A stretch of 64,000 nucleotides of DNA from an uncultured Treponema sp. (GTDB lineage: Bacteria; Spirochaetota; Spirochaetia; Treponematales; Treponemataceae): positions 186,001 to 250,000 of the forward strand of contig CAMVCB010000002.1 in assembly GCA_947165895.1 (NCBI GenBank). Reading direction: 5' to 3'. Each line of letters opens with the position of its first letter. Within the stretch, counting starts at the first letter, position 1. Positions 46,870-49,838 of the stretch are shown here, in pieces. Both the position numbers and the translations under genes were made by a program. The notes beneath the pieces were generated by a model. That model made no database searches. It was not told the DNA's origin and was given only the letters and a program-made list of their open reading frames with translations.

Positions 46870-47226
46870 TTACTTCCCAATTTTCACAATTAAATCTCTA
46901 AGTGATGTTCTTACATCTGGAGAAAGTTTTTCTATTGCAGTGATTATATCCTTATTTTTACGGTATAAAAATTGTTCTTGTTTTATTTGCGCTTTTGCTG
47001 TTTGAATTGAAGAATTGTATTCATTATTTCCGAAAACCAAATATTCTAAAGGTGTGTCCAGTTTTTCTGCAATTTTTAGGGCGATGTCGGCACTTGGAAT
47101 GCTGCCTAAAGCTTCGCCGTTATGAATGCTTGAATAAGATATTCCGATTTGAGCTGCAAATTCTTTTCGGGAAATATCCTGTTTTTCAAGAAGGTCTAAA
47201 ACTCTACCCCAGAAATTATCATTCAT
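46870..47226 (-). CDS. XRE-family transcription regulator
   Basis: A 118-residue protein with an N-terminal helix-turn-helix (FWGRVLDLLEKQDISRKEFAAQIGISYSSIHNGEALGSIPSADIALKIAEKLDTPLEYLVFG, residues 5-65) and a basic coiled C-terminal part. It is transcribed divergently from the secreted-protein cluster across a 140-base gap that holds a strong promoter with an overlapping palindrome, so it probably regulates that cluster and itself. The wording resembles phage-type repressors. No peptidase or sensor domain is attached. Confidence 0.85.
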   Translation of the reverse strand: MNDNFWGRVLDLLEKQDISRKEFAAQIGISYSSIHNGEALGSIPSADIALKIAEKLDTPLEYLVFGNNEYNSSIQTAKAQIKQEQFLYRKNKDIITAIEKLSPDVRTSLRDLIVKIGK

Positions 47227-47266
47227 AAGTATAATAATACAATTATGTTTTAAAATCTTCTTAAAT

Positions 47267-47295
47267 TTGATAATAATATATTATCATGATATAAT
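47267..47295 (+). promoter_or_regulatory. Promoter and palindromic operator of secreted-protein cluster
   Basis: TTGATA and TATAAT with a 17-base spacer. tgataataatatattatca (47268-47286), an imperfect palindrome, covers the -35 and spacer, a likely binding site for the divergent XRE regulator. Confidence 0.7.
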
Positions 47296-47317
47296 TATAT
47301 TATAAAAGAGGTGATGT

Positions 47318-47353
47318 ATGGATAAACTAATTGCTTGGCGGGCATATTTTTGA
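47318..47353 (+). CDS. Possible 11-residue leader peptide
   Basis: A short frame MDKLIAWRAYF with AGAGGTG immediately ahead of its ATG, placed between the promoter and the first gene of the cluster. It may be a leader peptide, or the remains of a longer gene. Confidence 0.4.
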   Translation: MDKLIAWRAYF

Positions 47354-47368
47354 TTAGTAGGTTTGTAT

Positions 47369-47728
47369 ATGAAAAAACGAAGTGTTTTATTAATAATATT
47401 TTTTATTTTTAGTGCATATCTATTTTCTGAAAGTATGTATTACTATGGGAATGGATTTTCTAGTGCTGAATATAAAGGTACAACATCAACTGTAAGAGCA
47501 TATAATCTTTGGCAATATCAAAAACAGCGTGCTCATGCAAGGTTATATAAAGTTGAAAAGCTGACGGAAGAAGAACGTACTTTTCTGTGGGGCGCATTAA
47601 AAAAATATGATTATCGTTATGGCGAGGTATATTTCATTTTGATTTCTCCAAGTGCTTTTCAACAGATATTTATTTATGCGGAAATACAAAAAGATAAATC
47701 TCTTTCATGGTATGGTTGGAGAAATTAA
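47369..47728 (+). CDS. Small secreted protein, triplet family member 1
   Basis: A 119-residue protein, not recognised. Signal peptide MKKRSVLLIIFFIFSAYLFS is cleaved before ESMYYY. The mature part has EYKGTTSTV and then LTEEERTFLWGALKKYDYRYGEVYFILI, the block shared with the next two genes (consensus L-x3-E-x-FL-x2-AL-x2-Y-x3-x2-E-V/I-Y). The start at 47369 is preferred over TTG six bases earlier. No ribosome site is obvious, since the upstream TAGTAGG is weak. First gene of a five-gene unidirectional cluster. Function unknown. Confidence 0.7.
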   Translation: MKKRSVLLIIFFIFSAYLFSESMYYYGNGFSSAEYKGTTSTVRAYNLWQYQKQRAHARLYKVEKLTEEERTFLWGALKKYDYRYGEVYFILISPSAFQQIFIYAEIQKDKSLSWYGWRN

Positions 47729-47753
47729 TTATTATAAGTAAAAGGAACGAGAT

Positions 47754-48155
47754 ATGAAAATTAAAAAAATAATATTTATTTTTGTATTGTTTATAGGTTT
47801 ACTTATATCTATAAGTGCTACTGATATAAGATTTCACTCTGATTCGGGAAACGGATGGTATGGATATTCAGGTGCAGATTATGTTGGAACAACAAAAACT
47901 GTTAATCCAAGCCAATTTGCAGAAGAAGCTGAAAACCGTGCTGCAAGATATTTTAGAATAGTACGTTATTGCGAAAAACTTTCAAGACAGGAAAATTTCT
48001 TGCTTTGGTCGGCATTGAATCAATATAACTATTCTAACAATGAAGTGTACTCTGTAATTATACAACAAGGTGACGAATGTTTGAATCTCATTGTTGTTAT
48101 TAAAGATAATGGAAATAGTTGTGATTGGTATGGCGGTGCTTATTGGAGATATTAA
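47754..48155 (+). CDS. Small secreted protein, triplet family member 2
   Basis: A 133-residue protein. Signal peptide KKIIFIFVLFIGLLISISA ends before TDIRFH. It contains YSGADYVGTTKTV, then LSRQENFLLWSALNQYNYSNNEVYSVII, paralogous with its neighbours, and finishes CDWYGGAYWRY. AAAGGAACGAG lies seven bases before the ATG. The 25-base gap to the first gene and the 22-base gap to the third indicate one transcript. Function unknown. Confidence 0.72.
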   Translation: MKIKKIIFIFVLFIGLLISISATDIRFHSDSGNGWYGYSGADYVGTTKTVNPSQFAEEAENRAARYFRIVRYCEKLSRQENFLLWSALNQYNYSNNEVYSVIIQQGDECLNLIVVIKDNGNSCDWYGGAYWRY

Positions 48156-48177
48156 ATTAAAATTAGGAGTATTCTAT

Positions 48178-48585
48178 ATGAAATTAAGAAAGATTTTTTT
48201 ATTTACATTGTTTTTCTTTTTTACACTTAATTCAATTTTTGCAGCAAAAATTTACGAAGATAGAATAAAGGGGTACTCTGGTGCTTCTGGTGCAAACTTT
48301 GTTGGAACTAATAAAGATTACTCTTTTGATACGCTTTGCGAGTTCAGGGAAAATAGCCTTAGAGAAGAAAATAATTTTGGAGGAATTCGGAAAAAATTGA
48401 CGGAAGAAGAATTTTTCCTTGTAGAGTCAGCGTTGGGTGAATATTCAGTTAAAAAAGGTGAAATATATGAAGTTATCGTTGTACTTTCGAGAAAAGCGAA
48501 TAAGGTATTGTACGTAGAGGTTGAAATAGCTAATGCAAAAAAAGGTGGCTATTATTATGTAGCCTTAGAATCGATTCGAGGATGA
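48178..48585 (+). CDS. Small secreted protein, triplet family member 3
   Basis: A 135-residue protein. The start at 48178 has TTAGGAG eight bases upstream; a longer frame would overlap gene 2. Signal peptide MKLRKIFLFTLFFFFTLNSIFAA. It has YSGASGANFVGTNKDY and LTEEEFFLVESALGEYSVKKGEIYEVIVVL, matching the family pattern. It is the most divergent of the three, without the WYG ending. Function unknown. Confidence 0.72.
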   Translation: MKLRKIFLFTLFFFFTLNSIFAAKIYEDRIKGYSGASGANFVGTNKDYSFDTLCEFRENSLREENNFGGIRKKLTEEEFFLVESALGEYSVKKGEIYEVIVVLSRKANKVLYVEVEIANAKKGGYYYVALESIRG

Positions 48586-48588
48586 TAA

Positions 48589-49101
48589 ATGAAAAGACTT
48601 TTTGCTTTAATTTTCCTTTTATTTTTAATCTCTTTTTCCTTCGCACAGGAAATTACCTCAAAACTCTTGTATCGCACTGGAGTTTACGGGCAGACTTTTG
48701 AACTTGCAGAATATACTGACGGGAATAATTGCCGGCTTTTGCTTTATATGAATGATAATATGAGTAAACAGGTGCAAACTTATGATTCATCAATGCAGAC
48801 TGTTTATTGTATCTGGTCAGAATGGTTTTTAAGTCCGGGAGAGTATTCAAAGGCGATAGAAGCAAGCAAAAAATTTTTTGATACTGATTTGAATTACATT
48901 TATCTTTCGGATATGAAGGATATTTGTGATATTGCACCCTGCTGTAAATCAACGGATTACAGAATAAAACAGTGGAACAATAGCAAGCAGAAATATATCT
49001 ATATCGAATACGAATGTTCGGATTTGGAGCTTTTGTTTGAAATAGCAAGATTTTATAACGCAAAAGGCCGCGATTACGTTTTTGAAAAATATATAAAATA
49101 A
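48589..49101 (+). CDS. Secreted protein of unknown function in same cluster
   Basis: A 170-residue protein with a signal peptide (MKRLFALIFLLFLISFSFAQ). The mature part has five cysteines, two adjacent (IAPCCKST), and a helix-strand mix (VQTYDSSMQTVYCIWSEWFLSPGEYSKAIEASKKFF). The three small neighbours lack cysteines apart from a few, so this is not a fourth family member. It starts three bases after the previous stop and is followed after five bases by the membrane-anchored protein. Function unknown. Confidence 0.68.
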   Translation: MKRLFALIFLLFLISFSFAQEITSKLLYRTGVYGQTFELAEYTDGNNCRLLLYMNDNMSKQVQTYDSSMQTVYCIWSEWFLSPGEYSKAIEASKKFFDTDLNYIYLSDMKDICDIAPCCKSTDYRIKQWNNSKQKYIYIEYECSDLELLFEIARFYNAKGRDYVFEKYIK

Positions 49102-49106
49102 TTTCT

Positions 49107-49649
49107 ATGAATATCCATAGGATTCAGAGTTTAATTTCTATTGTTCTTTCTAGTGTAATTTTTTGTTTAAGCTTTTATGCCTACTTTTTTGTATTTCCCT
49201 GGGAATTCGCTAAAGCCTGCTTTTCTGAACATCATGATTTTACGGAGAAATATAACAAAATTAATTCTGAGCTGAATTCTCGAATAACTTATGTAATGAA
49301 TTTCGTACATGATAATATCTATGATTTAAATGATGACGGAAAAGAAAATTGCATGGATTATTCCATCCTTTTTAAGCTGGTCTGGGATGAAAAGTATCCG
49401 GAATTAAAATCTGAATGTGAAATTGTACATAATCTCAGACCTGGAAAAATGAATCATCTTTTTATTCGTGTGACTGATGGAAAGTCTGAAGATATAGAAA
49501 TTGAGCCATGGGCTTATAATCCGAAGTTGTACCTGATGGAAGATAACTGGATTAAAGTTTATAAACCTGAATTTAATATTTATGGTGAAACAGATTTATG
49601 GCTGGAAGAAATAAAAGTTCCTTTTAGTCTGGGAGTTTCGAATAAATAG
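49107..49649 (+). CDS. Membrane-anchored transglutaminase-like protein
   Basis: A 180-residue protein with one N-terminal membrane helix (LISIVLSSVIFCLSFYAYFFV) and an extracytoplasmic domain. DLNDDGKENCMDYSILFKLVW (D73 to W93) places a calcium-loop-like DxNxDG just before C82, and later NHLFIRV (H117) and IEIEPWAY (E133) stand where a transglutaminase-like Cys-His-Asp/Glu triad would be. This suggests a cysteine peptidase or transamidase fold; it is inference from the spacing and was not checked by a search. Last gene of the secreted cluster. Confidence 0.6.
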   Translation: MNIHRIQSLISIVLSSVIFCLSFYAYFFVFPWEFAKACFSEHHDFTEKYNKINSELNSRITYVMNFVHDNIYDLNDDGKENCMDYSILFKLVWDEKYPELKSECEIVHNLRPGKMNHLFIRVTDGKSEDIEIEPWAYNPKLYLMEDNWIKVYKPEFNIYGETDLWLEEIKVPFSLGVSNK

Positions 49650-49838
49650 TTGCAGGGGGCACCGTGCCGAGCGTGGAGGGGCGCGGAGCGCGTGCGAAGC
49701 ACCGAACGTAGTGGAGCCCGGAAGGCGACTTGGAAGGTGGAACTGCACCCAAATTTTAAATGAAATTGTGTGAGCCGGTGCCTTAAACTGCGAACTTGCG
49801 AAGCAAGGTCGTGGAAACGCCTAAGTAAACTTACGCTT
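49650..49838. repeat. GC-rich palindromic island between convergent genes
   Basis: After the AT-rich cluster the sequence turns abruptly GC- and purine-rich, with words such as gggggcaccgtgcc, gcgcggagcgcg and acttgcgaagcaaggt. Short inverted repeats are nested (gcaccgtgccgagc, ggcacc/ggtgcc). It extends to the end of metA, read from the other strand. No gene is supported. Confidence 0.6.

Follow-up and report, generated by a model that had tools for sequence, protein, structure and literature searches.

A membrane-anchored transglutaminase/papain-like protein encoded beside small exported proteins in an uncultured Treponema: a possible envelope module

Several described systems come close to the locus analyzed here. 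The periplasmic protease LapG (BTLCP/Peptidase C93) has a transglutaminase-like (TG-like) fold and a functional calcium ion near its active site (PMC4359373). Papain-like cores are also found in MOA, a Ca2+/Mn2+-linked lectin protease of the fungus Marasmius oreades, and in the Tae/Tai pairs of the type VI secretion system, in which the enzyme is combined with small exported partners, while PeiW and PeiP (Peptidase_C71) are borne by phages. We analyzed a stretch of 64,000 nucleotides from an uncultured gut or rumen Treponema sp. (contig CAMVCB010000002.1, positions 186,001 to 250,000; hereafter the window), which lies within contig C2 of a 3.0 Mb genome. It carries a run of five genes, T1-T2-T3-C4-TG5, beside a divergent XRE-type regulator, an arrangement first proposed from an inspection of the letters (the sequence-only reading) and confirmed by the open reading frame (ORF) coordinates 46870-49649 and by family searches (Table 1). 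We propose, tentatively and with chances falling somewhat short of even, that this cluster is a Treponema envelope module that moves horizontally and is repressed by the XRE protein, and in which a calcium-switched TG5 acts with the dedicated exported partners T1-T3 and C4.

TG5 and the enzymes it resembles

The AlphaFold2 model of TG5 reached a mean predicted local distance difference test score (pLDDT) of 86.6, with ten-residue means of at least 90 (90-98) over residues 51-170 and of 53-81 in the anchor region. Cys82 begins a helix (82-96), His117 lies in a strand (115-123), and Glu133 directly follows another strand (129-132), the placement of this triad being judged from the order of the elements in the model. 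The first PDB rows in the Foldseek search were MOA (rank 1, E 0.09, prob 0.90) and LapG, with prob 0.85-0.90 and E about 0.1, whereas VIA ranked LapG (Z 7.3 over 113 residues) before MOA (Z 6.8), followed by NTAQ1, TglA, protein-glutaminase and the Pei enzymes; according to the warning of the tool, Z values under 8 can reflect a common arrangement. Among the top matches, one LapG entry is calcium-bound and one MOA entry is manganese-activated. Because TG/papain-fold enzymes fill most of the first rows and the conserved residues follow the order Cys-helix, His-strand and acid-strand, we accept this fold and regard TG5, as modelled, as a membrane-anchored member of the superfamily. The papain/transglutaminase core that had been suspected for the product of the gene at 49107 was thus largely right at the level of the fold.

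The likeness to LapG includes the order Cys-His-acid and a site outside the inner membrane, which for TG5 is a prediction, and the calcium site of LapG (PMC4359373) may be compared with the calcium-type loop of TG5. Since this EF-hand/dockerin-type loop holds the presumed catalytic Cys, a calcium dependence is predicted for TG5 by analogy with LapG, for which it is known; LapG cleaves a surface adhesin in the periplasm under the control of LapD. However, both proteins share only 11-12% identity, and TG5 has Glu instead of Asp, the EF-hand/dockerin-type loop and a membrane helix of its own; its neighbours are T and C4 genes, and no LapD-like or large adhesin gene was noted in or beside the cluster. 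The Pei enzymes gave the VIA rows of highest identity (17-19%, Z 5.2-5.6) and are phage-borne as TG5 is, but the Peptidase_C71 family was matched by one of 49 TG5 members below the Pfam cut-off (E 0.0059) and exceeded the cut-off in none of 35 genomes. Moreover, pseudomurein is not known from bacteria. MOA, despite its first rank, is a fungal lectin fusion with 8-13% identity to TG5.

The presumed active-site residues are strongly conserved within the family. For the alignment A6, 61 distinct domains were reduced to 50 and then to 49 rows, leaving out near-duplicates more than 90% alike and the member at L030, which misses Cys82 and is probably broken. C82, D84 and H117 are invariant, position 133 is Glu in 46 rows and Asp in 3, and the loop residues D73, N81 and D77 are kept in 48, 48 and 43 of the 49 rows, respectively. 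All of them are present in the window protein, so that the C82/H117/E133 spacing and the DxNxDG loop singled out by the sequence-only reading are borne out as conserved family columns. The loop 73-84 matches Dockerin_1 in 33/49 members (best E 5.7e-4), and the A6 profile matched dockerins in the PDB through this loop alone. Nevertheless, TG5 does not qualify as a dockerin, a domain with two repeats of the calcium loop and a cohesin-binding face, because its DxNxDGxxNxxD loop is a single one without a duplicated repeat; the loop is placed in the enzyme core, and its tenth position is the presumed catalytic Cys. Likewise, the window protein fits no library family: Transglut_core (PF01841) was matched by 4/49 members (best E 0.0015) and not by the window protein, and neither the window protein nor any of the 49 members matched BTLCP/Peptidase C93 in Pfam scans.

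The TG5 family occurs in 42 of 200 genomes of the genus. Loci L088, L090 and L080 place TG5 genes in the rumen species T. bryantii and T. ruminis. A scan across bacteria and archaea with one genome per species found 29 loci, all in Treponema or other Spirochaetes; it depends on conserved short peptides, and distant kin may escape it. Listings of open-access papers on Treponema, transglutaminase-like proteins or dockerins show no description of the family, and the main text of a classification paper (PMC10318531) names neither LapG nor dockerin nor Spirochaet. Many TG5 relatives have a Cys-rich part at the N-terminus together with a membrane helix; a common anchor of this kind with the T protein at L036 was considered, the profile score being too weak to claim it. 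Seven loci (L113, L114, L119-L123) encode TG5 domains with a C-terminal stretch that, by eye, looks like an outer-membrane beta barrel and resembles the tail of the TG2 family treated below, and two tandem TG5 domains form one protein at L130:8939-9847.

T proteins, C4 and their linkage with transglutaminase-like genes

With T2 as query, the source genome yielded T3 (E 2.7e-11) and T1 (E 3.4e-10) and, at E of at most 10, one further match with E 0.04. The three proteins are 27-37% identical (BLAST) and have the block KL[ST]xxExxLxxxALxxY...E[VI]Y in common; the paralogy and the block noticed at first sight are real, but the FL step included in the first description is inexact in some of them. 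The triplet also stands for a real family, with members in 31/200 genus genomes and an alignment of 32 rows. A phylum search of 392 genomes gave T matches in 25, nine of them outside the genus (two of the nine weak and with stops; G441 and G465 were left out of the fetched loci). In the tree, which is poorly resolved with 8/38 inner branches well supported, T2 groups with T of G132 (96/78; also its nearest BLAST relative) and G206, not with T1 or T3, and T3 groups weakly with T of G216. Since the kin of T2 lie in other species, the triplet did not arise by a recent triplication on the spot, and its members are old paralogues, as judged from these sequence relationships.

The mature part of T2 was modelled by AlphaFold2 from the 32-row alignment with a mean pLDDT of 96.6 and the element order beta-beta-alpha-beta-alpha-beta-beta-beta. 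Against solved structures, the best Foldseek PDB match had E 0.96 and the best VIA match Z 4.7, and sequence searches gave no convincing match; such scores establish neither a new nor a known fold. Hence, T has a confidently predicted fold without clear solved counterpart, which is possibly new. The top Foldseek row, the cystatin-like monellin, is too weak (E 0.96, TM 0.25) to suggest a role as cystatin-type inhibitor.

Exported T domains were also found fused to a FliL-like domain (L027:864-1664, L180:6054-6854 and L111:10481-11317; PF03748 E 8.9e-8 for L027), which might tie them to the flagellar motor in the periplasm, and in G060 one such copy and a TG5 gene are about 1 kb apart. By eye, T is furthermore fused to SAM-like/SAM-TM and zinc-ribbon parts.

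C4 has 6 Cys in 170 amino acids and belongs to no family that we could find; one homologue occurs in G002 (57% identical) and a second in G200 (L198:6936), where it immediately follows two T genes. Three small exported families turn up repeatedly in the vicinity of T or TG genes, namely K at 5 loci (L026, L110, L265, L266 and L269 after removal of copies), Y at 6 and C4 at 3, and this nearness is partly due to selection, as the loci had been chosen for carrying T, TG or C4. At L189:4525-5736, a Y domain (LHYWLYD motif, secreted, seen near T/C4 genes) and a TG2 domain are fused in one protein of 403 amino acids.

TG2 denotes a second, motif-defined TG-like family beside T genes, which occurs in 29/200 genus genomes and has C67, H152 and D168 invariant in 12/12 sequences. 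T genes lie within 5 kb of TG5 in G000 (the window genome), G034, G191 and G060, and within 5 kb of TG2 in G132, G128, G100 and G216. These are 8 of the 31 T genomes, compared with 0.10 expected under uniform placement, or 7 independent cases, because G034 and G191 are close kin. Moreover, among eight T loci fetched outside the genus, both loci of G518, which belongs to another genus, have TG5 beside T; these TG5 genes keep the catalytic residues, and L260 contains an extra partial copy. At the level of whole genomes, T and TG2 overlap in 12 of 200 genomes versus 4.5 expected (p=2e-4). The association of triplet and enzyme suggested by the sequence-only reading therefore stands as physical linkage of T with TG-like genes, but not as co-occurrence of T and TG5 in genomes (9/200 versus 6.5 expected, p=0.17). 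A functional TG5-T unit is plausible and supported by linkage, although such a unit would be loose and not specific for TG5.

What the cluster may be

From the conserved triad residues, the fold type, the T family with its fold and the gene linkage, all of them computed, we infer a scheme of export, calcium binding, catalysis, XRE repression and partner role. A single helix would anchor TG5 in the inner membrane, its domain lying beyond the cytoplasm, and the protein might be a cysteine protease or acyl-transferase that is switched by calcium and resembles LapG. Calcium bound in the DxNxDGxxNCxD loop would make Cys82 ready, along with His117 and Glu133, for action on a protein of the envelope. 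Exported with TG5, T1-T3 and C4 would be its dedicated partners, and the XRE protein would repress the cluster. For the T proteins, which the sequence-only reading had considered as possible substrates of the enzyme, a role as inhibitors or adaptors appears slightly likelier than one as sacrificial substrates, because conservation extends over the whole T fold and not over one site, and because the closest relatives of T2 are T proteins of other species and not T1 or T3.

Several observations weigh against this scheme. The exported proteins of the cluster match no Pfam, NCBIfam or PHROGs family above cut-off, and the structural matches of TG5 (Foldseek E only about 0.1, VIA Z about 7) are at a level also reached by common arrangements. 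C104 is Cys in 44/49 TG5 rows, hence C82 could form a disulfide with C104 instead of being catalytic, even if the five rows without C104 still keep C82. As just mentioned, the overlap of T and TG5 across genomes is close to expectation; 22/31 T genomes lack TG5, which largely amounts to the scattering of triplet members without the enzyme that had been named beforehand as speaking against the association, 12/31 lack both TG families, and at most TG5 loci T and a divergent XRE gene are both missing. TG2 was called TG-like by motif alone (Transglut_core 1/12 at E 0.02), and a profile link between TG5 and TG2 was non-significant in hhalign. Finally, a divergent XRE gene precedes 11/41 T runs, 8/15 TG2 runs and 5/65 TG5 runs, against a background of 22/163 divergent pairs in the same loci that is inflated by those very T/TG cases; the XRE profile was seeded from the loci in which the runs were counted, and 28 loci, mostly second copies, were dropped with some same-genome pairs remaining. 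XRE control accompanies part of the T/TG2 islands but not TG5 in general, hence the divergent XRE gene read from the letters recurs at several T loci and does not extend to the enzyme as such.

Among the other explanations, a phage origin of the enzyme deserves most attention. TG5 could be a phage accessory gene (moron), for example a membrane-anchored superinfection-exclusion protease, that was domesticated on the chromosome, with T as later neighbours or modulators. Nine IMG/VR contigs carry TG5, all with a helicase neighbour, 8/9 with the same upstream small gene and 7/9 with the same nuclease-like gene, and matches to phage families of helicases, primases and dCMP deaminases were obtained for the neighbours. 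TG5 is thus a conserved gene of Treponema-type phage contigs, which supports a phage connection of the enzyme. WYL-type regulators near TG5 in 11/59 nonredundant loci (including L029, L034, L035, L115 and L132) would also fit; one of them matches the PADLOC WYL models (E 1.6e-23). However, the phage copies sit in the replication region, 50,697 GenBank phage records contained no match from P0002, single-sequence queries of viral contigs with T2 and C4 found no relative (the T alignment is too divergent for a profile scan), and PADLOC gave no match for T1-T3, C4 and TG5. On balance, we consider the moron explanation unlikely. The XRE protein of the cluster matches PADLOC models that are HTH-type (helix-turn-helix) or regulator-like by name, and no T gene was found on plasmids.

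It is quite improbable that the small exported genes and the TG-like gene form no functional unit and were simply gathered at a variable AT-rich site. In the eight relatives examined, the cluster is absent at metA (8/8), the metA side is syntenic and the left flank varies, which, like the weak genome-level co-occurrence of T and TG5, would suit mere gathering; a clean empty site could not be demonstrated, because only one border is visible next to the non-syntenic flank. The tight arrangement on one strand, with intergenic spaces of 25, 22, 3 and 5 bases from T1 to TG5, and the recurrence of T genes beside members of two TG-like families, in another genus as well, argue for a unit.

An envelope toxin/immunity system like Tae/Tai, with TG5 as periplasmic toxin domain and the divergent T copies as immunity proteins, is in our view very unlikely. 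Tae1/Tse1 is among the Foldseek matches of TG5, the proteins are small and exported, the T alleles are divergent with kin in other species, and toxin-antitoxin pairs lie nearby (by eye), but TG5 carries a membrane anchor of its own, most genomes with T are without TG5, and T forms fusions with FliL and, by eye, with other parts. In addition, inspection of the cluster, the genome not being searched, revealed no gene of a secretion system or polymorphic toxin. Least of all do we expect a transglutaminase-type crosslinking of T proteins to envelope components, since the TG-like fold of TG5 and a conserved Lys (K53 in 29/32 T rows) are met by closest fold matches that are mostly proteases and amidases and by a T alignment without apparent conserved Gln donor.

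The calcium-switched envelope module proposed here could be part of something wider, which is doubtful in its full extent: an undescribed envelope system of spirochaetes, in which calcium-gated TG-fold cysteine enzymes, with the catalytic Cys inside the calcium loop, are paired with dedicated exported T-fold proteins that inhibit them, target them or are modified by them, the partners being common to two TG-like families, XRE often controlling and phages carrying copies of the enzyme. Little is understood about the envelopes of spirochaetes, whose exported proteins in many cases belong to no family. In this regard, the locus offers a specific pair, an enzyme family without domain model and a confidently predicted fold without clear solved counterpart, in repeated linkage. 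If true, it would add a form of calcium control with the nucleophile placed in an EF-hand-type loop, and would connect envelope proteolysis in Treponema of the rumen and gut with genes of phages.

Regulation, layout and surroundings

The region upstream of T1 contains a sigma-70-like promoter and a palindrome overlapping it (Table 1), as the sequence-only reading had stated. The scanned region has 26 promoter-like sites, compared with 15.9 (sd 3.9) in shuffles. The palindrome exists as described, but its significance does not hold, since its arm length was reached by 10% of 2000 shuffles of the AT-rich gap, and it was dropped as evidence for an operator. The foreign, AT-rich base use was confirmed: the GC content of 47227-49649 is 0.307, below that of any equal-length stretch sampled elsewhere in the window (median 0.413, minimum 0.335). 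No RNA family was found in the cluster.

The order divergent XRE, T and then TG recurs at L110, L183, L189 and L194 and is also present in the window and at L026, where gaps of 363 and 537 bases had caused the runs to be split. The leader ORF shares 9 of its first 10 residues with the product of L198:5383 (MDKTIAWRAYNK...; DNA 87% over 31 bases, E 7e-4), and this G200 gene precedes two T genes and a C4 gene. Because the leader thus matches the start of a gene preceding T-T-C4, the window cluster has probably lost its first gene, as far as this short match indicates.

Table 1. Features of the cluster and its regulatory region (window coordinates)
Feature	Position	Strand	Basis and remarks
XRE/Cro-C1-type regulator, 118 aa	46870..47226	-	divergent from cluster; HTH_3 E 2.2e-9, Phage_CI_repr E 7e-7
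Sigma-70-like promoter, TTGATA-N17-TATAAT	47267..47295	+	faces cluster; 11/12 consensus bases, extended -10; consensus only
Palindrome, TGATAATA-ATA-TATTATCA	47268..47286	.	exact inverted repeat, two 8-base arms and 3-base loop; candidate operator
Leader ORF of 11 codons, MDKLIAWRAYF-stop	47318..47353	+	read as 5' remnant of lost first gene
T1, T-family protein, 119 aa	47369..47728	+	ATG start; family search and alignment; export predicted
T2, T-family protein, 133 aa	47754..48155	+	nearest kin T of G132 (48%), tree and BLAST; export predicted
T3, T-family protein, 135 aa	48178..48585	+	ATG inside longer ORF from 48091; export predicted
C4, protein with 6 Cys, 170 aa	48589..49101	+	homologues in G002 and G200; export predicted
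TG5, membrane-anchored, predicted exported transglutaminase/papain-like domain, 180 aa	49107..49649	+	AlphaFold2 model, fold matches
TG5 codons 73-84, EF-hand/dockerin-like loop	49323..49358	+	alignment columns, Dockerin_1 matches
TG5 presumed catalytic Cys82 codon	49350-49352	+	inside EF-hand/dockerin-like loop
TG5 presumed catalytic His117 codon	49455..49457	+	H in 49/49 rows
TG5 presumed catalytic Glu133 codon	49503..49505	+	E 46/49, D 3/49 rows

For T1, the ATG was chosen as start, while the TTG at 47363 preferred earlier lies six bases upstream. The export predicted for T1-T3 and C4 is based on signal-peptide-like starts judged by eye. Upstream of the cluster, the neighbouring HigBA pair recognized at the outset was verified (Gp49 E 1e-25, HTH_3 E 2.3e-12), and pairs resembling toxin-antitoxin systems also adjoin T genes, by eye, at L181, L184, L185, L186, L191, L193, L198, L200 and L202. 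Translations inspected by eye furthermore suggest a low-molecular-weight phosphatase-like gene upstream and a metA-like gene downstream of TG5. Right after TG5, positions 49650-49800 hold a GC-rich dispersed repeat with 12 copies in the genome (73-100% identical), three of which lie at most 550 bases from a contig start.

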